44,907 bases of DNA from Flavobacteriales bacterium (GTDB lineage: Bacteria; Bacteroidota; Bacteroidia; Flavobacteriales_C; GCA-002722245): the NCBI GenBank assembly GCA_002720635.1, contig PBJD01000040.1, forward strand, positions 4,446 through 49,352. Reading direction: 5' to 3'. The notes beneath the pieces are model-generated. The model did not search any database, was not told the DNA's origin, and saw only the letters and a list, made by a program, of their open reading frames with translations. How positions within the stretch are numbered: position 1 is the first letter of the stretch; every line of letters begins with the position of its first letter. Both the position numbers and the translations under genes were made by a program. This document shows, one piece after another, positions 27,471 through 40,445 of this stretch.

Positions 27471-28674
27471 TCTTTTTCCTTTTTTTTAGTGTCCCAACAG
27501 CCTGGCCAAAACCAACTTTTACACCATTTTTTTCAGCATACCCACTTAATGAAACCGTATCTCCATTTTCAATAAATGTTCTTATTTCACCTTTAATCTT
27601 TAACGGCTTTTCTCCATTATAAGTTTGCTCAAGCAAACTTCCTTTTTCTTTTTCATCACTTATAGTTCCGGACCCCATAATATCACCTACTTTAAGATTA
27701 CATCCATTAACAGTATGACGGGCTATCTGCTGATGGACTGTCCAGTACATTTTAGAAAAATTTGTGTGTGTGATTTCCTGATTGTTCAAATGCACCTTTA
27801 AATTAATATCAAAAGATTCCGGCTGATGCATTTGTAAATAAGGCAAATCCTTCTTTTTTGGGTTAACTGAAACTCTAAATAAATTCAGCGCTTCAATAGT
27901 GACAATCCAGGGCGAAATAGTGGTAGCAAAGTTTTTACCTAAAAAAGGACCAAGGGGCTTGTATTCCCAACTCTGAATATCTCTTGCCGACCAATCATTC
28001 AGTAAACAAAAACCAAAAATATACTCCTCTGAATCAGATATCTCAACAGGATTTCCAAGTTGGCTAGATTTTCCGATTACAGTAGCAAATTCCAATTCAA
28101 AATCAACTTTTTCAGATGGTCCAAATACAACTTTATTTTGTTTTAGCAACTGGCCCTCCGGTCGAATAATTTCAGTCCCTGAAACTACAATTGAAGAAGC
28201 TCTTCCATGATAAGCAATAGGCATGTGTATCCAGTTTTCCGTTAAAGGGTTATCACCACCTCTAAACAATTCGCCTACATTTTCAGCATGATGTCTACTG
28301 GAATAAAAGTCTGTGTAATCTCCCACTTTTAAAGGCAAATGCATTGTCACTGATTTATCATCAAAAAAATACAAATCAAAATTTAACCTTAAAGAACTAT
28401 CCTTCAGAGTCAACTCCTCCTGGATAATCAATCTAATCTTATTGGTTACAGACTTACCAAGATGTATAAAATCATTTAAAAAGTTTTTTTCAAAAACATC
28501 TTCAACTACAATTCCCTCAAAAAAGCCGGCATCATACATTGATTTCAAATCAATAACATAGTCACCAATTCTGGAACCAATACGCTTCGTGTTGCCCCTT
28601 GAAAAGACACCAAAAGGTAAATTATAGATACTAAAATCCGTATTGGGTGATATATTTATCCAGGTTTCTATAAT
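27463..28674 (-). CDS. fahA: Fumarylacetoacetase (extended to a putative non-canonical start; ORF-track start 28548)
   Basis: GDYTDFYSSRHHAENVGELFRG, PIAYHGRASSIVVSG, LNDWSARDIQSWEYKPLGPFLGKNFATTISPWIV, CNLKVGDIMGSGTIS. Upstream in-frame codons encode (I)IETWINISPNTDFSIYNLPFGVFSRGNTKRIGSRIGDYVIDLKSM, matching the conserved N-terminal domain. Confidence 0.88.
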   Translation of the reverse strand: MIETWINISPNTDFSIYNLPFGVFSRGNTKRIGSRIGDYVIDLKSMYDAGFFEGIVVEDVFEKNFLNDFIHLGKSVTNKIRLIIQEELTLKDSSLRLNFDLYFFDDKSVTMHLPLKVGDYTDFYSSRHHAENVGELFRGGDNPLTENWIHMPIAYHGRASSIVVSGTEIIRPEGQLLKQNKVVFGPSEKVDFELEFATVIGKSSQLGNPVEISDSEEYIFGFCLLNDWSARDIQSWEYKPLGPFLGKNFATTISPWIVTIEALNLFRVSVNPKKKDLPYLQMHQPESFDINLKVHLNNQEITHTNFSKMYWTVHQQIARHTVNGCNLKVGDIMGSGTISDEKEKGSLLEQTYNGEKPLKIKGEIRTFIENGDTVSLSGYAEKNGVKVGFGQAVGTLKKRKKNE

Positions 28675-29765
28675 GTGCCTCGTTTAGCTTGTTCTAATTC
28701 AATTGCTTCAAATAATGCTTTGAAATTACCTTTTCCAAATGACTTCGCTCCCTTTCTTTGAATTATTTCATAAAAAACTGTTGGTCTGGGACCGACTGGT
28801 TTAGTGAAAATTTGCAACAAATACCCTTCATCATCTCGATCAATTAATATTTTCAACTCCTTCAGAGGTTCCAGATCTTCATCTATTTCCCCAACTCTTT
28901 CCATTACAGTATCGTAGTATTCATTCGGTACATGCAGAAACTCTACTCCTCTATTTTTTAGTTGAGTCACCGTTTCAATAATATTTTCTGTAGCCATTGC
29001 AATATGCTGAACTCCTGGCCCTTCGTAAAAATTTAAGTACTCTTCAATTTGAGAACTCTTTTTTCCTTCAGCAGGCTCATTGATAGGGAACTTTATTCTT
29101 CCATTATCATTGGACATTACCTTACTCATTAGTGCTGTATAATCCGTAGATATATCTTTATCATCAAAGGAAACCAGTTGAGAAAACCCCATTACCTTAC
29201 TATAAAACTTTGCCCAGATATTCATTTCATTCCACCCTACATTACCAACCATGTGATCAACAAATTTCAGGCCCACTTCCTCAGGGGTATATGTAGACTC
29301 CCATTTTTGATATCCAGGCAAAAAAACACCATTATATCCGGAGCGATTTATAAAATAGTGGACGGTTTCCCCATAAGATTTAATACCGCTAATTTCCAAA
29401 ATCCCATACTCATCCTCGACAGAAGTATAATCGCGTATACATTCCGCACCTCTTGAAACGGTTTCATTCAAAGCTTTTTTTGAATCCTCCACAAGCAATG
29501 CAATGACTTTAACTCCATCTCCATGTTTATCAATATGTTTTCCAATTTCAGAACCGCTATGTAATGGGGATGTGAAAACCAACCTGATTTTATCTTGCTG
29601 AACAACATAAGATTGAGATTTATCATTACCCGTTGATAAACCTGAGTATGCCAAAGGTTGAAAACCAAAAGAACTTTGATAAAATCTTGCTGCCTGCAAT
29701 GAATTACTAACATAGTATTCAATATAATCGGTCCCGTGCAGGGGTAAAAAATCTTTCTTCTTCAT
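28668..29765 (-). CDS. hppD: 4-hydroxyphenylpyruvate dioxygenase
   Basis: 365 aa; DYIEYYVSNSLQAARFYQSSFGFQPLAYSG, VDHMVGNV, GPGVQHIAMATENI, GYLLQIFTKPVGPRPTVFYEIIQR. Confidence 0.96.
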   Translation of the reverse strand: MKKKDFLPLHGTDYIEYYVSNSLQAARFYQSSFGFQPLAYSGLSTGNDKSQSYVVQQDKIRLVFTSPLHSGSEIGKHIDKHGDGVKVIALLVEDSKKALNETVSRGAECIRDYTSVEDEYGILEISGIKSYGETVHYFINRSGYNGVFLPGYQKWESTYTPEEVGLKFVDHMVGNVGWNEMNIWAKFYSKVMGFSQLVSFDDKDISTDYTALMSKVMSNDNGRIKFPINEPAEGKKSSQIEEYLNFYEGPGVQHIAMATENIIETVTQLKNRGVEFLHVPNEYYDTVMERVGEIDEDLEPLKELKILIDRDDEGYLLQIFTKPVGPRPTVFYEIIQRKGAKSFGKGNFKALFEAIELEQAKRGTL

Positions 29766-29770
29766 ATCTG

Positions 29771-30922
29771 TTATGTTAACCAGGATTTAAAGTAATTCTC
29801 ATCTTCCACACTAAGAGCGTCCTGGGTTATTTTTAAAGGATTAAAGGGGTCTACCATGACGGCTAACTCATCCGTTTTCGACTCTCCAATACTTTTTTCT
29901 ACTGTTCCCGGGTGGGGTCCATGCGGGATTCCTGACGGATGCAATGTTATGTCACCACATTCTATGCTGTCTCTACTCATAAAATCGCCCTCAACATAAT
30001 ACAAAACCTCATCTGAATCAATATTACTATGATTGTATGGAGCAGGTATTGATTTAGGATGATAATCGAATAATCTGGGGCAAAATGAACAAACCACAAA
30101 ATTATTTCCTTCAAAAATTTGATGTACTGGTGGCGGTTGATGAATCTTTCCTGTTATTGGCTCAAAATTGTGAATTGAGACCGCAAAGGGATAACAATAA
30201 CCATCCCATCCAACAACATCAAATGGATGACTGGCGTAAATCACCTCATGAATCTTATGATTTTTATTTATATGCAATTTAAAACGTCCTTTTTCATCAT
30301 TGGAATTCAACCCTTCAGGAAGCTTTATATCTCTTTCAGAAAGTGGAGCCCCCTCTAAAAACTGTCCTCTTTTACTCAAATACCTCTTCGGAAAGGATAT
30401 AGGACTATTTGATTCTATATATAATATTTTGTTTTTTTTAGATTCAAATTCGATTTGATAAATAATCCCTCTTGGAATAATCAAATAATCTCCATCACAA
30501 AAATCAATGTTCCCAAGAAACGTTTTCAAAAGTCCGTTACCTTTATGTACAAAAATCAACTCATCAAAAGATGCATTTTTGTAATATATATCTCTTAAAG
30601 AGCTTTGTGGATTTGAAACACCAATTGTTAAATCGTTATTAAAAAGTAAAGGCACTTTTCCTTCGTTATATGAAGAACCAGAAGGAAGTTTGTTCGCTTT
30701 TATTTTTCTGGAAGTAATATTTTCATTAACTGCAGCCTTCGGAGCAACATCTTTAAAACCTTTTACCTCACTCACCTGAGTGGGCGGATGAATGTGATAA
30801 ATCAAAGATGAATCACTTGAAAACCCTTCATTACCAAACAATTCTTCGTAATATAAACTTCCATCTTTTTTACGAAATTGAATGTGTCTTTTAGGTGGTA
30901 TTTTTCCGAGTTTATAATACAT
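29771..30922 (-). CDS. hmgA: Homogentisate 1,2-dioxygenase
   Basis: 383 aa; GDYLIIPRGIIYQIEF, PFDVVGWDGYCYPFAVSIHNFEPITGKIHQPPPVHQIFEG, YYVEGDFMSRDS, LHPSGIPHGPHPG. Confidence 0.95.
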   Translation of the reverse strand: MYYKLGKIPPKRHIQFRKKDGSLYYEELFGNEGFSSDSSLIYHIHPPTQVSEVKGFKDVAPKAAVNENITSRKIKANKLPSGSSYNEGKVPLLFNNDLTIGVSNPQSSLRDIYYKNASFDELIFVHKGNGLLKTFLGNIDFCDGDYLIIPRGIIYQIEFESKKNKILYIESNSPISFPKRYLSKRGQFLEGAPLSERDIKLPEGLNSNDEKGRFKLHINKNHKIHEVIYASHPFDVVGWDGYCYPFAVSIHNFEPITGKIHQPPPVHQIFEGNNFVVCSFCPRLFDYHPKSIPAPYNHSNIDSDEVLYYVEGDFMSRDSIECGDITLHPSGIPHGPHPGTVEKSIGESKTDELAVMVDPFNPLKITQDALSVEDENYFKSWLT

Positions 30923-30923
30923 A

Positions 30924-32156
30924 TCATAAAATTTTTTTAATTGCTATAGAAATTGCTTTTTGACTGATTTTCGTAGTATCACTACTAATTTTGTAGATGT
31001 TTTTTAATGATGTGCAAATGGTTTTAGAAACATCCTCAAATATAGCTTTAGAAGAAATTTCATTTTCCTTTTGCATACAATAACCAAATGTTCTGGCCAT
31101 ACCACAGTTTGCGATAAAATCAGGAATAACGGAAATTGTATTATCGGCATGCTCCATAACTTTTCCGTACAATATCTCCTCGTTATCAAAAGGAACATTG
31201 GCTCCTGAAGCAATTAACTGACATCCATTTTTTATCAAAGTATTCAAATTAGACTCACTCACTAATCTTGAACCGGCGCAAGGCAAAAAAATATCCGATC
31301 CATGATTCCAGAAAGTATGAAAATCATTATAAAATTTTTCTTTGGACTTAATTGTATTATTCTCTTTAGTTAAAAAAAATTTTACTACTTCCTCTTCAGA
31401 AAACCCGTCGTTTGATAAAACAAAGCCTTCTTTATCCATTATGCCCTTTATTTTAAATCCCGCTTTTGATAAAAAAAATCCTGCAGAGGCGCCTACATTT
31501 CCCCAACCTTGTATTAGAACGGATTTGTTTTTACAAACTCCATTTTTCCAAATAGCATAATAATGAATCACAGACTGTGCAACTCCATATCCGGTAATCA
31601 TATCTGAAACAGAATATTTTTTATTTATATCCGGACTAAATTCAGGATTTGCAATTACCATAGGAACTCCCAATCTTAGCTGGCCTATTTTTGATATCTT
31701 TTGCGATTTATCGGGGTTAAAATGTCCCTCAACTATTCCTTCCTGCGGGTGCCAAATCCCATAACTTTCAGTTATAGGAACAACATCCTGTGCTTCATTG
31801 ACATTCATGTCCCCTCCTGTTCCATAATAAGATTTTAAAAGCGGACTAACCGCCTTGAACCACCTTTTCAAAACCCCGGACTTCCTTTCATCTTTGGGGT
31901 CGAAATCAATGCCTGATTTAGCTCCACCAATTTGTGGCCCGCTTACTGTAAACTTAACTTCCATTGTTTTGGCCAGCGAAGTTACTTCATGTAAAGTCAG
32001 ACCTTTACGCATTCTTGTTCCTCCACCAGATGCTCCACCACGCAAGGAATTAATTACAATCCATCCTCTGGCATTGGTTTTGGAATCATTCCACTCAAAA
32101 ATAATTTCAGGAGAAGTAGATTCATATTGCGTTATTAACTCTTTTATCTCAGACAC
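30924..32156 (-). CDS. Glu/Leu/Phe/Val dehydrogenase family protein
   Basis: 410 aa; GGGTRMRKGLTLHEVTSLAKTMEVKFTVSGPQIGGAKSGIDFDP, GTGGDMNV, VLIQGWGNVGASAGFFL, DFIANCGMARTF. Confidence 0.9.
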   Translation of the reverse strand: MSEIKELITQYESTSPEIIFEWNDSKTNARGWIVINSLRGGASGGGTRMRKGLTLHEVTSLAKTMEVKFTVSGPQIGGAKSGIDFDPKDERKSGVLKRWFKAVSPLLKSYYGTGGDMNVNEAQDVVPITESYGIWHPQEGIVEGHFNPDKSQKISKIGQLRLGVPMVIANPEFSPDINKKYSVSDMITGYGVAQSVIHYYAIWKNGVCKNKSVLIQGWGNVGASAGFFLSKAGFKIKGIMDKEGFVLSNDGFSEEEVVKFFLTKENNTIKSKEKFYNDFHTFWNHGSDIFLPCAGSRLVSESNLNTLIKNGCQLIASGANVPFDNEEILYGKVMEHADNTISVIPDFIANCGMARTFGYCMQKENEISSKAIFEDVSKTICTSLKNIYKISSDTTKISQKAISIAIKKIL

Positions 32157-32390
32157 ATTTTAGATACGGCATAAATATTGAAACAGATACATGGTTGTAT
32201 ATCAATGCTATTTGAACCTTTACACTAAAGGCCTCGTTATATTAAATAGTTTAAAGAGAAACAACCGGACGTTATTCGTTTCAGAAAGAACAAACACTTC
32301 AAACTGAAACAGATTTAAAGATATCGTACTCTGAATTGTTGCTGGTGCAATACATGAACTAGGATAACTTCTTCAAAATCTTGATTTATT

Positions 32391-33110
32391 ATGAGGCAGG
32401 ATATGTCGAAATATACTGATACGGATTTAAAAACATGGAATTATTTATTTGAACACCAATATTCAAATATTCATGAAAAAGTATGTTGGGAATATCTGGA
32501 TTGCCTGCAACAATTATCGGAGGCCTTAAACCCGCATGAAATTCCGGATTTCAAAAAACTAAATTCACTTTTGTATTTGAAAACAGGTTGGACAATTCAC
32601 ATCGTGCCGGGTTTAATTGAAGCTGTAGATTTTTTCGATCATCTAAAAAACAAACGATTTTGTTCCTCTACCTGGTTAAGATCAGAAGATGAATTACACT
32701 ATATTGAAGAACCCGATATGTTTCACGATATATTTGGACACATTCCTTTATTTATGAATCAAGACTATGCTGATTTTGCTCAAAGAATAGGAGAACTGGC
32801 CATAAACTGGAGAAATGATGAACATAAAATCTCACAAATTCAGAGACTGTATTGGTTTACCATTGAATTTGGTGTAATTCGTCGTAAAGGAAAAATTAAA
32901 AGTTATGGAGCGGGTATTATTTCGTCGATTCAGGAAGTGAACAAAGTGAATAATAACATCGGAGATTTTAACAAATATGATATTACAGAAATTTTAAACA
33001 GACCTTTTAATATTGATACTGTACAACCCGCATACTACGTAATAAGCTCTTTTTCAGAACTTTACAAATCTCTTGATACAGTAGAACTCCTCTTTTCAAA
33101 AGCAGCTTAA
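32391..33110 (+). CDS. phhA: Phenylalanine 4-monooxygenase (aromatic amino acid hydroxylase)
   Basis: 239 aa; GWTIHIVPGLIEAVDFFDHLKNKRFCSSTWLR, EEPDMFHDIFGHIPLFM, YWFTIEFGVIR, YGAGIISS. Confidence 0.95.
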   Translation: MRQDMSKYTDTDLKTWNYLFEHQYSNIHEKVCWEYLDCLQQLSEALNPHEIPDFKKLNSLLYLKTGWTIHIVPGLIEAVDFFDHLKNKRFCSSTWLRSEDELHYIEEPDMFHDIFGHIPLFMNQDYADFAQRIGELAINWRNDEHKISQIQRLYWFTIEFGVIRRKGKIKSYGAGIISSIQEVNKVNNNIGDFNKYDITEILNRPFNIDTVQPAYYVISSFSELYKSLDTVELLFSKAA

Positions 33111-33257: not shown

Positions 33258-35336
33258 ATGGATAACGACATTAACAACCCGTTAAATAATAGTCTTCAGA
33301 AACACATAAGTGATGTGGTTTCTGGTGAAAAGAGGTTTGAAAACATATATCAGTCATTAACACGATTAATTTTAGGATCACCGGATAATTTAAAAAAAAT
33401 AAACATTAACGGTAAATCCACATTTGATTTTCTGGTTTTTAGAAACGGGAAAAGACATATTGTTGGAATGCATGATGAACTTAATAGTTTTGTATCCTAT
33501 GTTAAGGATGCTGCAGAAAATGGATCGTCGAAAGAAATGTCATTTGTATTGATTGGTGAGCCCGGTAACGGAAAAACATTTTTTGTAGATTATTTAAGTA
33601 CATTGTACAGAAATTTCATATCTCTTCCTGAAAACAATCGATTTACTTTCCAATTTAAAAACCTCAGCGAACTGGGAACATACGGCCAACTAAACAGGAT
33701 AGAATCACAAACTTTTGAAGATCCAATGATTTTAGCCATGAATTTATTTGATTCAAAAGATGAAAATATTGAATTTGTTCAAAAACTTGGTGCAACGGAT
33801 AAACAAATTGATGAATTTTATGAAAACTACAGGCCTCTGGGGGCATGTAGTGATTATATATTTCAGGAGTTAAAACAGCATACTGATTACAACATTGATA
33901 AACTGATGGAAAATCATATTGATATCGTTAAAATTCCCATCAGTGAATCCAGAGGTACATTAACGGGGAAATATGCTGCAAAAGACAAAATTACATCTTC
34001 CGCAGTTGATTTACTGGGAGAGGAATCTATTTCCAGGTTATTACACATTACCGATACCAATAACCCTTATCGATTTGACTTAAGAAGGGGGGCTTTAGCC
34101 AGAGTTGCCGGAGGAGGAATTCATTTTGCAGATGAAATATTCAAAAACAAAAAAGATCTGGTTCAGGTTTATTTAGGAGTAATTCAAAACAGGACAATTG
34201 AAATGGAGGGCTTTAAATGGCCTTTGGACACATTAATTGTTGCAACCAGTAATAACGCTGAGTTCGGTCGTTTTTTAGCTGAAAAGGAAGAAGCCCCTAT
34301 TGTTGACAGGTGTAGAATTACATATATGTCACACAACACCAATTATCTATTCCAAAAAAAATTAACCGACTATGCTTTGGGAAACAAAAACAAAACAAAC
34401 TTCTTAAATGAAAAAATGCATGTTGACCCAAATCTAAACTATGCTATTTCAACTGCAGTGGTACTGTCAAGAATGCCTAAATCAAATAAATTAAACCCTG
34501 TTGAAATGATGAAGTTAGCAGCAGGGGAAACCGCAGGAGAAAAAAGCATCAAAACATTAAGCGAAGTAATTAATGAATTGAATAAAGACCCGGATATAAC
34601 GAATAGATTCGGTCAAAAAGGACTTGGGCACAGAAACCTCGGGAGAACTTTACAAATATTGCTTGAGCGTTCAGAAACGCAGGAAGGAAAGTGTATGTAT
34701 GCCGGAGATGTTTTTATTGCTTTAGAAAGCGTAATACTGGATTATGTAACTGTTCCTGAAGACCGAACTAAATTTTTAAATGATTTAAAAATTGCAAGAG
34801 GTTTACACCGAAAAAATATTATGACTACGATTTTTAATGCTTACATGGATGAACCACATGCTATTGAAAAAGACGTTATCAATTATGTAAACATGGTTAT
34901 TGGTATTGACGCAAAAAACCTGGGTCCGGACAAAATATGGACCTACCACGACCCACAAACGGGAAAACTGGTACCCTTAAAAATTGACGAAGCTTTTATT
35001 GATAGCGTTGAGTCAAGATTGGGGTTAGGTAATAAAGAACAAAAGCAGAGCTTCAGAACCACTATATCCAAAATTTATGGACAGAAAATCGTTAAAGACC
35101 CGAATTATAATTTCATGGATAATAACGATTTAGTAAAAGCAGTAACTGAAGTTCGATTAAAATCAGATATTGCAGGCGCCGGAAGCTTAGTGGGAGCGCT
35201 TTCAAACCGAACCAACGAAGAGAATCAAAAACTATATAACAGGGTTTTAAACACCATGAGCAATAAACTTGGTTATTGCAAAACGTGTGCATTAAAAACA
35301 ATTGAATATTTCTGTACGCATGATGATGAAAACTAA
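33258..35336 (+). CDS. PrkA/YeaG-like AAA+ serine protein kinase family (paralog 1)
   Basis: 692 aa; VGMHDELNSFVSYVKDAAENGSSKEMSFVLIGEPGNGKTFFVDYL (Walker A), RRGALARVAGGGIHFADEIFKNKKDLVQVYLGVIQNRTIEMEGFKWPLDTLIVATSNNAEFGRF, C-terminal region like PrkA (IFNAYMDEPHAIEKDVINYV...YHDPQTGKLV). Confidence 0.85.
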   Translation: MDNDINNPLNNSLQKHISDVVSGEKRFENIYQSLTRLILGSPDNLKKININGKSTFDFLVFRNGKRHIVGMHDELNSFVSYVKDAAENGSSKEMSFVLIGEPGNGKTFFVDYLSTLYRNFISLPENNRFTFQFKNLSELGTYGQLNRIESQTFEDPMILAMNLFDSKDENIEFVQKLGATDKQIDEFYENYRPLGACSDYIFQELKQHTDYNIDKLMENHIDIVKIPISESRGTLTGKYAAKDKITSSAVDLLGEESISRLLHITDTNNPYRFDLRRGALARVAGGGIHFADEIFKNKKDLVQVYLGVIQNRTIEMEGFKWPLDTLIVATSNNAEFGRFLAEKEEAPIVDRCRITYMSHNTNYLFQKKLTDYALGNKNKTNFLNEKMHVDPNLNYAISTAVVLSRMPKSNKLNPVEMMKLAAGETAGEKSIKTLSEVINELNKDPDITNRFGQKGLGHRNLGRTLQILLERSETQEGKCMYAGDVFIALESVILDYVTVPEDRTKFLNDLKIARGLHRKNIMTTIFNAYMDEPHAIEKDVINYVNMVIGIDAKNLGPDKIWTYHDPQTGKLVPLKIDEAFIDSVESRLGLGNKEQKQSFRTTISKIYGQKIVKDPNYNFMDNNDLVKAVTEVRLKSDIAGAGSLVGALSNRTNEENQKLYNRVLNTMSNKLGYCKTCALKTIEYFCTHDDEN

Positions 35337-35344
35337 ACCCAGAA

Positions 35345-36604
35345 ATGAAAGGAGGTCGCAGGAAAAATATCGATCGCTTAGATGGAGAAAAAACCTATTT
35401 AAGAATAGAGGAATTATTTCTACATAATTCTTCAGAATCTTCTTATGTTTCTTTACAAACCCTTGATGAATTAATGGCTCGGGATAACCAGCGTGAAGAG
35501 GATGGATTTGAACGAAAAATTAAACTTGGTAAGATTGTCAGACCGGGTAAAAATGGATCTGATGAAATTATAATTGTTCCGAGTACAATTGAAACAAAAT
35601 TTTATCACGATAACGCTCCAAATAACGAGGAGGAGGAATTTGGTGGAACCGGAACGGAGGAAGAAGGCAGTGTTATAGGCGAAAAAAGCAACAATCCGAA
35701 AAATGAAGATGGATCGGGAAAAGGGCCAGGAGAAGGAAGTGAAAAAGGACATGACTTAAACTCAGACGCATACAATTTAGGAAAAGTTTTAACTGAATAC
35801 TTTAACCTTCCGAGGTTAAAGCAAAAAGGCATAAAAAAAAGCATATCCCAATACAATTATGAATTAACTGATTTGAATAAAGGTTTCGGTCAATTAATCG
35901 ATAAAAAACAAACTCTGAAACGAATCATTAAAACAAATATATTACTGAATAATATTCCGGAAAAAACAAAACCGGATTTATCATCATTGATTCACTCGCC
36001 TCAGGATACTGTTTATAAAATTTTATCACGAGAAATAAGTTATGAAACAGAGGCAATTGTATTTTTCGTAAGAGACTATTCCGGATCTATGCAGGGGTCA
36101 CCCTCGGAAGCCGTACTTACACAACATTTATTCTTGTACAGTTGGCTCATGTATCATTACGATAAAAGAGTAAAAACCCGATTCATTCTTCACGACACTC
36201 AAGCTATTGAGGCTGAAGACTTCAGTACCTACTACCGATCTAATGTGGCTGGAGGAACAAAAATATTCCCTGCCTTTGAACTGGTAAACTCAATTATTGA
36301 AAATGAACAATTGCATCTTTCAAAAAACATATATGTTTTTTATGGTTCAGATGGAGATGATTGGAAAGACAACAAAAATAATTTAGTAGGAGAAATTAAA
36401 AAACTGTCAAAATACGCAAACCGTATTGGAATATTCGTCGCAAGAAATTCTGGAAATGACAACCCCACAAGTCTTGAAAGCACAATTGAAGAATCAAATA
36501 TTTTAAGTGAATTAAACGACATCCTGAAAATCACTCAAATTAACTCCAGGGACTTCACTGAAAGTCAAATTATAGAATCCATAAAACTTTTTCTTAGGGT
36601 ATGA
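35345..36604 (+). CDS. DUF444 / YeaH-like protein with VWA-type MIDAS motif
   Basis: 419 aa; acidic/Gly-rich linker (NNEEEEFGGTGTEEEG...GKGPGEGSEKGHDLNSDAYNLGKVLTEYFNLPRLKQKG), FVRDYSGSMQGSPSEAVL, HDTQAIEAEDFSTYYRSNVAGGTKIFPAFELV. Confidence 0.85.
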   Translation: MKGGRRKNIDRLDGEKTYLRIEELFLHNSSESSYVSLQTLDELMARDNQREEDGFERKIKLGKIVRPGKNGSDEIIIVPSTIETKFYHDNAPNNEEEEFGGTGTEEEGSVIGEKSNNPKNEDGSGKGPGEGSEKGHDLNSDAYNLGKVLTEYFNLPRLKQKGIKKSISQYNYELTDLNKGFGQLIDKKQTLKRIIKTNILLNNIPEKTKPDLSSLIHSPQDTVYKILSREISYETEAIVFFVRDYSGSMQGSPSEAVLTQHLFLYSWLMYHYDKRVKTRFILHDTQAIEAEDFSTYYRSNVAGGTKIFPAFELVNSIIENEQLHLSKNIYVFYGSDGDDWKDNKNNLVGEIKKLSKYANRIGIFVARNSGNDNPTSLESTIEESNILSELNDILKITQINSRDFTESQIIESIKLFLRV

Positions 36605-38190
36605 AACTGGTTAATCAACATACAAAGAATATTATGGAGGGGTGCAAAGAAAGAGCTCAGGACGCCGGGTTAAAATTCGACCAGGAAAGTCTGGAATACA
36701 TAGTTACCAACTCTGACTTAATAGAACTTCAACCAAAAATAATGATTCCTACAATGTATGATTTTTGGGTAAATGACATTGAAATAATACAAGGAAAAGA
36801 GAAGTATAAAGTATTCCCTCATAACCCATATGAAACTGTTATAAATTCCAGGCCGGCGATTTCATTCTACAATGATAATAATCCTGACTGGCTAAATGTT
36901 ATGATTTTTTATCATGTCCTGGCTCACATCGATTTTTTTCAAAACAACCATTTGTTTTCAAATACCTGGAATGAAGATTTTGTTGGAAAAGCTTTGGCAG
37001 ACAAAAGACAAATTGCGTTTTTAAGAACAAAACATGGAAGATGGGTTGACTATGTCATTGAATTTTCAAGAAGCATTGATAATCTGGTTGGATTTTTTTC
37101 TGCTCTCAACGAAAAAGAAGCCCCTCCCATTGGAGCAGATATGGCTGGATATTACTTCAATATATTTTGTCAGGAAAAACTCAAGTTGAATGAGCACATT
37201 GTTTTCAAACAAATCGAACAATACAATAAATTAATCAGCAACAATCCACAAGTTGGAAAAGTTTTATTCTTTAATAACATTATGAAAAAACATCCTGAAT
37301 TTGAATTTGAATTCAAAAAACATATTGATACCAATAAATCCAACAAAACGGATGTAATTCAATTTATAAGAGATCATTCTCCATTTTTAAATAAGGATGA
37401 AAACAAATGGATGAAAACCATTGTAAATATTATTCGAGAATCATCCGTTTATTTCAGTCCCCAGATTCGAACAAAAATAATTAACGAGGGTTGGGCATCC
37501 TTTTGGCACGACAGATTATTCAGGATGGATGACAGAATAAGTGGCAACGAAGTTCAATATGCTAAAATAAATGCATCAGTTACCTCTATTAACAGAGCAG
37601 GACTTAACCCTTACGCGATTGGTTTGCGCCTGATACAGGAAGTTGAAGAATTAGGCGACAGAGGAATGCTGAGTCATGAATTTGAGAGGATTACCAGTAT
37701 TGATGAGCGATCAAAATACAATACACAAAATAGCAAAGGTTTAGATGCGATATTTCATTTAAGAAAGCACTTTTCCGATTTTACTTTAATAAACTCTTTT
37801 GTAAATCAGGACTTTGTTTCAAAACACGACCTGATGGTAATTGGAAAACGACAAAATGAAGAAAGAAACACAACAGAATATTATGTAAAAAGCAAAAAAG
37901 CAGAAGACTACAAAAACATGCTGCTTGATAGTTTATATCACCCACCATCCATATCAGTTGATGAGGTAAAAACGAATGATAAGTGCTTATACCTTATTCA
38001 TCAATTTGAAGGAAAACAATTGTTAAAAAGCCATATAAAAAGCACAATGATGGGAATTGGTTTTTTATGGGGAGGAAATGTTGAATTAATAACACAGGAA
38101 ATAAAGTTGAATAAGTCTGATGGAACGAAATGGAATAAGAAAGTCATCTATACCTATAAGAATAAAAAATTAACAAAAGAGGAACTTTAA
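36601..38190 (+). CDS. SpoVR/YcgB family protein
   Basis: 529 aa; ISFYNDNNPDWLNVMIFYHVLAHIDFFQNNHLFSNT, EKAPPIGAD-like segment (EKEAPPIGADMAGYY), EGWASFWHDRLFR, NPYAIGLRLIQEVEE. Start overlaps preceding stop (ATGA). Confidence 0.88.
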   Translation: MKLVNQHTKNIMEGCKERAQDAGLKFDQESLEYIVTNSDLIELQPKIMIPTMYDFWVNDIEIIQGKEKYKVFPHNPYETVINSRPAISFYNDNNPDWLNVMIFYHVLAHIDFFQNNHLFSNTWNEDFVGKALADKRQIAFLRTKHGRWVDYVIEFSRSIDNLVGFFSALNEKEAPPIGADMAGYYFNIFCQEKLKLNEHIVFKQIEQYNKLISNNPQVGKVLFFNNIMKKHPEFEFEFKKHIDTNKSNKTDVIQFIRDHSPFLNKDENKWMKTIVNIIRESSVYFSPQIRTKIINEGWASFWHDRLFRMDDRISGNEVQYAKINASVTSINRAGLNPYAIGLRLIQEVEELGDRGMLSHEFERITSIDERSKYNTQNSKGLDAIFHLRKHFSDFTLINSFVNQDFVSKHDLMVIGKRQNEERNTTEYYVKSKKAEDYKNMLLDSLYHPPSISVDEVKTNDKCLYLIHQFEGKQLLKSHIKSTMMGIGFLWGGNVELITQEIKLNKSDGTKWNKKVIYTYKNKKLTKEEL

Positions 38191-40445
38191 TGAGCGATGA
38201 ATTTGAACATAACGACTCAAAAAACCTATACGATGCTTTGGAAAAGCTTAGTGAGCATCTTATTGAAACGGAACGTCTCAAACCAATAAGTTTCTCAGAC
38301 TTCCTAGAGCTTTCTGTAAAAGACCCTTATGGAGTTTACAGAGATATTTTTCAAGTGTTTTACGACATGGTTCATTTTTATGTCAAAGAACGGAAGGAGA
38401 GAAAAAAAAATCTTTTTACCGAATCCTATTTTAAAAATTATGACTTTTTCAAATTATTGCAGGAAGGTTGTGACAACCCCTTTTTTGCCGATCGACTTTT
38501 CGCCAATCGTTTCATAAATCTGGTAAATGGATTTAAGGACGGGACCCGTACAAACCAAATTGTCTTATTTGAGGGCCCTCCGGGAAGTGGAAAAAGTACA
38601 TTTTTAAATAACTTACTACAAAAACTTGAAGAATACACTCTCACAAGTGACGGATCCATTTATTCAATTTACTGGAAAATTGACGTTGACAAACTTGGCG
38701 GTAGAAGTAATGTCAAAAACATTATTGATACCGTTGGTAGTGAAGGTTCCCAATCTTTTAACTCTAAAGAAAAACACCTGGAGTTTTTATGCCCCAGCCA
38801 TGACCATCCCATTTTATTGATTCCAAAAGAATACCGAAAAACATTTTTAAACAACCTTATAAAAGACAATAAATTCAAGAATAAACTCTTTCACGAGAAG
38901 CAATATGAGTGGATTTTCAATGAAGTTCCCTGTAGTATTTGTCAATCCTTATACACCTCTTTATTTGATAAGCTGGAAAACGCAGCAGCCGTTTACAGCA
39001 TGGTACATGCAAAGAAAATGCGTTTCAACCGACAATTTGGAGAAGGAATAAGCCTTTTTAATCCCGGGGATCAGATATATCAAAAAGCCATTACAAATAA
39101 AACATTGGAGCAAAAAATAAACAACCTTTTCAAAACAGAGCACATAGAATTCATTTATTCAATTCTGGCAAAAACAAATAATGGAGTATTTGCTCTAATG
39201 GACATAAAAGAAGAAAACATAAAGCGATTAATCCAGCTTCATGGTATAATCAGTGATGGAATACACAAAGTAGGTCTTATCGAAGAAAGCATTAAGTCTT
39301 TGTTTGTTGGCTTAGTAAATCCAGGAGACAAAGTTCATTACTCCGATATTCCATCTTTCCAGGACAGAGTTATTGAAGTTAAAATACCTTACGTCCTGGA
39401 TTATAATATTGAAGTCTCCATCTACAAGAATCAGTTTGGAGACGCAATAGAAAACTTATTTCTTCCGGGAGTACTTAGAAACCTCGCAAAAATAATGATC
39501 AGCTCAAGGTTGAACGGAGAATCAAAAACCATCAAAACATGGCTAAAAAAACCAAATGACTATAAAAACTATGTTGACAATAATTTTCATTTATTAAAAA
39601 TGGAACTATACACAGGTAAAATACCATTTTGGCTTAAAGAGGCCGACATAAAATCATTTGACTCAAGTATAAAAAGAGGTCTTTTAAGAGAATCTGATAC
39701 AGAAGGAAATTCAGGTTTTACGGGAAGACAAAGTATAAATATATTCAGAAACTTTCTTACTCAACATAAAAAACCGGATCATTTAATCACAATGTCAGAA
39801 GTAGAGACTTTCTTCTTAAAAAACAAAACAAAGCTTTTCAACGATTTTATCACTAAGGACTTTATCACGTTCATGAGAAGAATGTATGACTACAACCTGC
39901 TTCAGGAAGTTAAAGAATGTATTTACTATTACAATAAATCTCAAATTTCAAAGGATATACTTAACTACATCTACGCACTGAGTTTTGACAAGGGAGAGGA
40001 GGTTATTAATCCATATACCAATGATTATATAACTGTTGATGAAGATTTTTTCAACCTTTTTGAGTCCATAGTGCTAACTCCGGACTCAGATGAAGTAACA
40101 AGCTTCAGAAGAGATATACAAACCACTTATATTTCTCAAACACTGGCTCAGGAAATTCAAATTGAAGGTCTTGACATTACTGAAACAGCTCTTTACAAAA
40201 AAATACTCGACAAATACACCAGAAGCTTAAAGAAAAACGCATTAACCCCCTTTGTGGAAAATGAAAATTTTCGAAGAGCTTTGTTGGATTATGACTCGGA
40301 TTCCTTCGCAAAATATGATGCCCGTCTAAAGAAAAGCATAAAACATTTAATCAAAAATTTAATCAAAAAATATGGCTACACTCAAGAGGGCGCAATGCAA
40401 GTTGTTATATACCTGATTGACAACAAACTTTATTTGAAAAATTAA
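38190..40445 (+). CDS. PrkA-like AAA+ serine protein kinase family (paralog 2)
   Basis: 751 aa; TNQIVLFEGPPGSGKSTFLNNLL (Walker A), CPSHDHPILLIPKEYR, CSIC, GDKVHYSDIPSFQDRVIEVKIPYVLDYNIEVSIYKNQFG, TGRQSINIFRNF, C-term KKYGYTQEGAMQVVIYLIDN. Start overlaps preceding stop (TAATG). Confidence 0.82.
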   Translation: MSDEFEHNDSKNLYDALEKLSEHLIETERLKPISFSDFLELSVKDPYGVYRDIFQVFYDMVHFYVKERKERKKNLFTESYFKNYDFFKLLQEGCDNPFFADRLFANRFINLVNGFKDGTRTNQIVLFEGPPGSGKSTFLNNLLQKLEEYTLTSDGSIYSIYWKIDVDKLGGRSNVKNIIDTVGSEGSQSFNSKEKHLEFLCPSHDHPILLIPKEYRKTFLNNLIKDNKFKNKLFHEKQYEWIFNEVPCSICQSLYTSLFDKLENAAAVYSMVHAKKMRFNRQFGEGISLFNPGDQIYQKAITNKTLEQKINNLFKTEHIEFIYSILAKTNNGVFALMDIKEENIKRLIQLHGIISDGIHKVGLIEESIKSLFVGLVNPGDKVHYSDIPSFQDRVIEVKIPYVLDYNIEVSIYKNQFGDAIENLFLPGVLRNLAKIMISSRLNGESKTIKTWLKKPNDYKNYVDNNFHLLKMELYTGKIPFWLKEADIKSFDSSIKRGLLRESDTEGNSGFTGRQSINIFRNFLTQHKKPDHLITMSEVETFFLKNKTKLFNDFITKDFITFMRRMYDYNLLQEVKECIYYYNKSQISKDILNYIYALSFDKGEEVINPYTNDYITVDEDFFNLFESIVLTPDSDEVTSFRRDIQTTYISQTLAQEIQIEGLDITETALYKKILDKYTRSLKKNALTPFVENENFRRALLDYDSDSFAKYDARLKKSIKHLIKNLIKKYGYTQEGAMQVVIYLIDNKLYLKN

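Follow-up and report, generated by a model that had tools for sequence, protein, structure and literature searches.

A conserved PrkA–DUF444–SpoVR–PrkA module with two unequal AAA+ ATPases in Bacteroidota and other bacterial phyla

The contig PBJD01000040.1 of a Flavobacteriales bacterium (assembly GCA_002720635.1) contains a stretch of 44,907 nt, hereafter the window, in which four co-directional open reading frames at 33258-40445 (+) encode, in this order, a PrkA-family AAA+ ATPase (PrkA1), a DUF444 protein with a von Willebrand A (VWA) domain, a SpoVR protein, and a second PrkA-family AAA+ ATPase (PrkA2). The gene families themselves are ordinary and known. The distinctive part of the module is that it is a conserved and asymmetric variant with two ATPases: they belong to two deep clades of the PrkA family, they obligatorily co-occur, their genes are kept in the same order, and they differ invariantly at one catalytic position. 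We give a probability of about one half to the reading that the module works as a two-ATPase AAA+/VWA remodelling machine, in which PrkA1 would be the active motor and PrkA2 a hydrolysis-impaired partner, by analogy with other AAA+ systems that have VWA partners.

Two PrkA clades and their catalytic motifs

We assigned PrkA1 (33258..35336, +, 692 aa) and PrkA2 (38190..40445, +, 751 aa) to the family using the profiles PF08298 (AAA_PrkA) and PF06798 (PrkA C-terminal), with the curated Pfam cut-off of 25 bits. Both proteins pass it in both domains, with respectively 46.6 and 122.4 bits for PrkA1 and 41.2 and 131.3 bits for PrkA2. The preliminary description of this locus had taken them for two divergent PrkA-like AAA+ proteins, and the profile search indeed places neither of them outside the PrkA family. 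They are far from the canonical YeaG/PrkA equivalog (NF011999, cut-off 576 bits), which gives 35.7 bits with PrkA1 and no match with PrkA2, and they are scarcely alignable with each other (BLASTP E = 0.012). The closest solved structure by sequence is 9xip (692 aa), described as a 'serine protein kinase' (E = 8.9e-10 and 1.7e-19 for the two PrkAs). In a FastTree phylogeny of 111 sequences, the 25 PrkA1 and the 26 PrkA2 are each monophyletic with a support of 1.0, and the two clades obtain 100/100 each with IQ-TREE on a reduced set. The latter analysis also splits PrkA1 and PrkA2, together with some other sequences, from canonical PrkA (98.6/97), and it unites them weakly with the second PrkA of a divergent set, called type B below (51.9/62). 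The sequence phylogenies thus place PrkA1 and PrkA2 in two deep clades outside canonical YeaG/PrkA.

The motifs of PrkA1 are complete: Walker A (GEPGNGKT), Walker B (HFADE), the sensor-1 Asn, an Asp-Arg pair that is a candidate arginine finger, and sensor 2 (GLGHR). PrkA2 has an intact Walker A and retains the sensor-1 Asn, the Asp-Arg pair, and the sensor-2 Arg, but the Walker-B Glu is replaced by Asp (ALMD). As read from these motifs, PrkA1 has a full catalytic set and PrkA2 is altered at Walker B. The pattern extends to the clades, which both keep the Walker A Lys, the sensor-1 Asn, the Asp-Arg pair, and the sensor-2 Gly-x-x-x-Arg. A gap in the MAFFT alignment shifts PrkA1 by one residue at Walker B, and we therefore defined the site in the ungapped sequences, as the sixth residue past the conserved (last) Gly of the strand. 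This residue is a Glu preceded by Asp, i.e. the classical DE, in 25/25 PrkA1, an Asp in 26/26 PrkA2, where the catalytic Glu would be expected, and a Glu in 45 of the 48 canonical PrkA, which lie outside both clades and have the form [I/V]-E. The clades also differ in a zinc-like CxxH...CxxC motif, present in 24/26 PrkA2 (CPSHDHP...CSIC at this locus) and 27/48 canonical PrkA but in 0/25 PrkA1. A separate clade is made of solo PrkA-like proteins of Acidobacteriota (724-991 aa; L138:7250-9904, L139:7492-9666, L140:5179-7434, L141:4741-7716, and L142:5793-8009), which have Asp at the Walker-B position in 5/5 cases; neither DUF444 nor SpoVR was found near these genes within the stretches read.

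The two proteins encoded between the ATPases are clear members of their families. The YeaH-type DUF444 protein (35345..36604, +, 419 aa) scores 100.1 bits with PF04285 and 497.9 bits with NCBIfam NF003712 (cut-off 421). Its metal-ion-dependent adhesion site (MIDAS) is intact (D244xS246xS248 / T305 / D336), which supports the earlier suggestion of a VWA adaptor, and these residues are conserved in the members of the module, in canonical YeaH, and in the type-B pair. The YcgB-type SpoVR protein (36601..38190, +, 529 aa) scores 194.6 bits with PF04293, above the cut-off, and a sequence search matched it to no solved structure. Its invariant H105-x3-H109 and N295-E-G-W-A299 are common to YcgB, Thermomicrobium, and both types of two-PrkA sets (A, as here, and B); our guess is that they might form a metal site.

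Conservation and distribution of the module

Direct reading of the junctions shows an 8-bp gap, then an ATGA overlap, then a TAATG overlap, exactly as first described, and this tight spacing suggests that the four genes are a single co-transcribed unit. Scans for sigma-70 promoters and terminators gave no more sites than in shuffled sequence. The layout is not a product of chance because the order PrkA1–DUF444–SpoVR–PrkA2 is kept, with short spacers or overlaps, in 20 linked loci of Bacteroidota, Desulfobacterota, and Acidobacteriota, and because pN (non-synonymous differences) is far below pS (synonymous differences) in all four genes when compared with two genus-mates. The values of pN range from 0.03 to 0.19, with a (saturated) pS of about 0.7–0.8, as expected under purifying selection.

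We searched 398 genomes of Bacteroidota, 198 of Desulfobacterota, and genomes of Acidobacteriota with the PrkA family profile. PrkA is above the cut-off in 10 of the 398 Bacteroidota (including the genome studied here, whose assembly is 78% complete and has two PrkA genes, both at this locus), eight with two PrkAs and two with a single canonical one. The two-PrkA layout exists in other Bacteroidota. DUF444 was detected in these 10 genomes and in no other, and SpoVR in nine of them; in the tenth (G392), a 2.6-kb contig ends within DUF444. The co-occurrence of PrkA, DUF444, and SpoVR has Fisher p-values of ~1e-17 to 1e-20, which are descriptive, the genomes being non-independent. The type-A two-PrkA set is present in 12/198 Desulfobacterota. 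In Acidobacteriota, one genome (G652) has the full set, and a record of Aminicenantes (L012) has the last three genes, with the contig ending inside DUF444.

The two PrkAs depend on each other in this dataset, since PrkA2 is present in 25/25 genomes having PrkA1. A few of these genomes were found via PrkA2 itself; the surveys made with the family profile are free of that bias. The genes are sometimes unlinked: they are on contigs C2, C14, C20, and C19 in G396, where all four are retained, on C60, C10, C63, and C10 in G408, and in G436 (Microscillaceae) PrkA2 is on another contig than PrkA1–DUF444–SpoVR. Retention without linkage is stronger functional evidence than adjacency. The trees of PrkA1 and PrkA2 are correlated (Mantel r = 0.83, with 0/2000 permutations as high), a value to which shared species history contributes, and together with co-occurrence this supports the co-evolution of the two proteins.

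Within the genus, the module is found at the same place in 2/4 genus-mates (G002, locus L007, and G004, locus L008), and it was found in 0/6 family-mates. It is missing from G003, a 100% complete genome of the same genus, which keeps on different contigs both the upstream aromatic-catabolism block and the downstream DUF2279/lipase/ABC block. As G003 has both flanking blocks without it, the module is a cassette that was acquired or lost inside the genus. In G003, a gene for an AraC-family regulator (L153:8131-9267) occupies the place beside the hydroxylase gene. The upstream block, adjoining the module in the window (28668-33110), encodes a phenylalanine 4-hydroxylase-like protein, an ELFV-family dehydrogenase, a homogentisate-dioxygenase-like protein (51.8 bits for a cut-off of 510.75), and a 4-hydroxyphenylpyruvate dioxygenase. 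This block for the catabolism of aromatic amino acids is conserved across the genus, whether or not the PrkA module is there. We considered and rejected the hydroxylase gene as a fifth member, since outside the genus it does not adjoin the module, and G003 has the block alone. A role in defence was also dropped: the sole PADLOC result was a weak match to mad8, through the P-loop of PrkA2. Genes of these families are also found in phages. Thermus phages carry PrkA-like genes, such as the 'serine kinase' gene of phiYS40 (DQ997624.1, 49480-51006), whose product is 21% identical to PrkA2, and the genome of a jumbo phage of Ralstonia includes genes for both PrkA and SpoVR (PMC8504454).

How the two ATPases might work together

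In the AAA+/VWA machine that we propose, PrkA1 would be the motor hydrolysing ATP, and PrkA2 would be a non-redundant and catalytically weakened partner, located in the PrkA1 ring or stacked on it, that determines the asymmetry of the ring or the choice of client. DUF444 would dock on the ATPase and hold the client at the MIDAS site, and SpoVR would be a dedicated client or effector of the machine. We prefer this type of machine because the evidence for kinase activity is contested, because Lys426 (K426) of YeaG is not conserved, and because of the analogy with NorQ/NorD, where the VWA protein plugs the AAA+ ring and its MIDAS binds the target (PMC9976466). NorQ/NorD is one of the MoxR AAA+/VWA pairs, with RavA/ViaA and CbbQ/CbbO, that associate a hexameric AAA+ with a VWA/MIDAS partner and a dedicated client (PMC9976466). 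These pairs differ from the present module in having an AAA+ of another family, a single AAA+ subunit, and no SpoVR, and the AAA+ proteins studied here score as PrkA and not as members of MoxR. A more specific version, which we advance tentatively and at less than even odds, is that a single hetero-oligomeric ring requires both PrkA1 and PrkA2 as unequal subunits, one competent and the other weakened at Walker B, and acts with the MIDAS adaptor on SpoVR; the physical assembly, the direction of action, and the place of SpoVR as client are what we infer in both versions.

A number of arguments weigh against this machine. The hetero-assembly is predicted from sequence, and the MoxR/VWA pairs are an analogy. 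The swap of Glu for Asp need not stop hydrolysis. An Asp-bearing PrkA-like protein is the sole PrkA in three genomes with solo proteins (G681, G706, and G717), so Asp does not by itself imply a partner. DUF444 matches the VWA_CoxE model at E = 0.014 only. AlphaFold models made from shallow alignments have a mean pLDDT (the predicted local confidence score) of 43 for PrkA2 (7 rows) and 40.5 for SpoVR (5 rows), too low for use. Finally, the genomes with an unlinked PrkA2 are also compatible with a separate ring. This last point leads to a different arrangement, possible but on the unlikely side, in which two homo-oligomeric rings share DUF444 and SpoVR but serve different clients or intervene at different steps, with no mixed ring. 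It fits the three genomes that encode the second PrkA apart from PrkA1 (G396, G408, and G436), the zinc-like motif confined to PrkA2 in this pair, and the poor alignment between the two ATPases. Yet the systematic co-occurrence and correlated trees show dependence, though not physical mixing, and PrkA2 would still have to hydrolyse ATP with an Asp at the catalytic position.

The preliminary description had proposed a heteromeric or antagonistic kinase pair working through DUF444 and SpoVR, which would make the PrkAs signalling Ser/Thr protein kinases. We regard this as improbable, in spite of the historic naming of the family and of reports that YeaG has kinase activity in vitro and that its K426A variant fails complementation (PMC4664914). 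No Pfam protein-kinase domain is among the matches listed for the two proteins, which do not class as Hanks-type kinases; the position of K426 is an Arg in all PrkA1, variable in PrkA2, and mostly Asp or Asn in canonical PrkA; and purified PrkA of Bacillus anthracis showed no detectable kinase activity (PMC13001217). The kinase pair is thus poorly supported, and antagonism between its members finds no support. More doubtful still is a role of one PrkA, or of both, as an ATP-dependent protease, an activity claimed for PrkA of B. subtilis according to PMC13001217: the profile searches matched no protease domain, and the re-test of the B. anthracis protein, whose kinase and protease activities were undetectable or negligible, attributed the latter to a contaminant (PMC13001217). 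Least probable of all is the reading of PrkA2 as a paralogue of PrkA1 that is redundant or in decay. It does evolve ~2.3 times faster (mean patristic distance of 1.33, for 0.57 in PrkA1), but it is under purifying selection (pN 0.07 and pS 0.78 against L007), its Asp motif is invariant, and none of the 25 genomes with PrkA1 lacks it.

Relation to known systems and significance

The canonical modules of Escherichia coli (yeaGH and ycgB), Rhizobium, and Thermomicrobium (prkA-yhbH/DUF444-spoVR) have the same three families as this one and share its MIDAS and SpoVR motifs, and the order PrkA-DUF444-SpoVR is the same in T. roseum and R. etli (PMC3188799). The three proteins YcgB, YeaH, and YeaG occur together in enterics and in Pseudomonas aeruginosa (PMC2375023), and reverse-transcription PCR showed that prkA–VWA–spoVR of R. 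etli is a single operon (PMC3188799). When E. coli is starved of nitrogen, yeaG and yeaH jointly have the role of a brake (PMC4664914; PMC10954441). By analogy with E. coli and R. etli, the two-PrkA module may be involved in stress or starvation. The key difference is that canonical modules, including that of Bacillus, have one PrkA where this one has two.

The closest precedent is archaeal. A signature cluster described in 2011 for all ten haloarchaea studied has two PrkA genes side by side, accompanied by DUF444 and SpoVR (PMC3102087), and prkA2 is used as a gene name in Haloquadratum (PMC9684190). As here, two PrkAs are kept together with DUF444 and SpoVR, but the haloarchaeal PrkA genes are adjacent whereas here they bracket DUF444-SpoVR, a comparison made with the haloarchaeal pair by description only. 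A search of a plasmid collection gave no haloarchaeal PrkA match. The highly divergent type-B set, with order PrkA-DUF444-SpoVR-PrkA in one locus of Desulfobacterota (L135:5031-12645) and one of Acidobacteriota (L136:4479-11927), is a candidate bacterial relative of this pair. It has the same asymmetry as the module studied here, with Glu in the first PrkA and Asp in the second at the Walker-B position, but its first PrkA, unlike PrkA1, groups with canonical PrkA. The initial view of the locus as an under-described system is thus fair, even if the layout cannot be called new given the haloarchaeal precedent. We found no paper on a bacterial two-PrkA module in the open-access literature (subscription journals were not covered), and both the conserved asymmetry and the presence of this layout in several bacterial phyla look new.

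PrkA/YeaG–YeaH–YcgB is a widely conserved stress module in which the activity of PrkA itself, as protein kinase, protease, or AAA+ remodeller, is contested. The existence of a natural version with two AAA+ proteins that differ in a fixed way at the catalytic position speaks in favour of an AAA+ machine. If true, the mixed ring would be an asymmetric AAA+/VWA machine distinct from the systems with a single PrkA, present across bacterial phyla and perhaps in haloarchaea.

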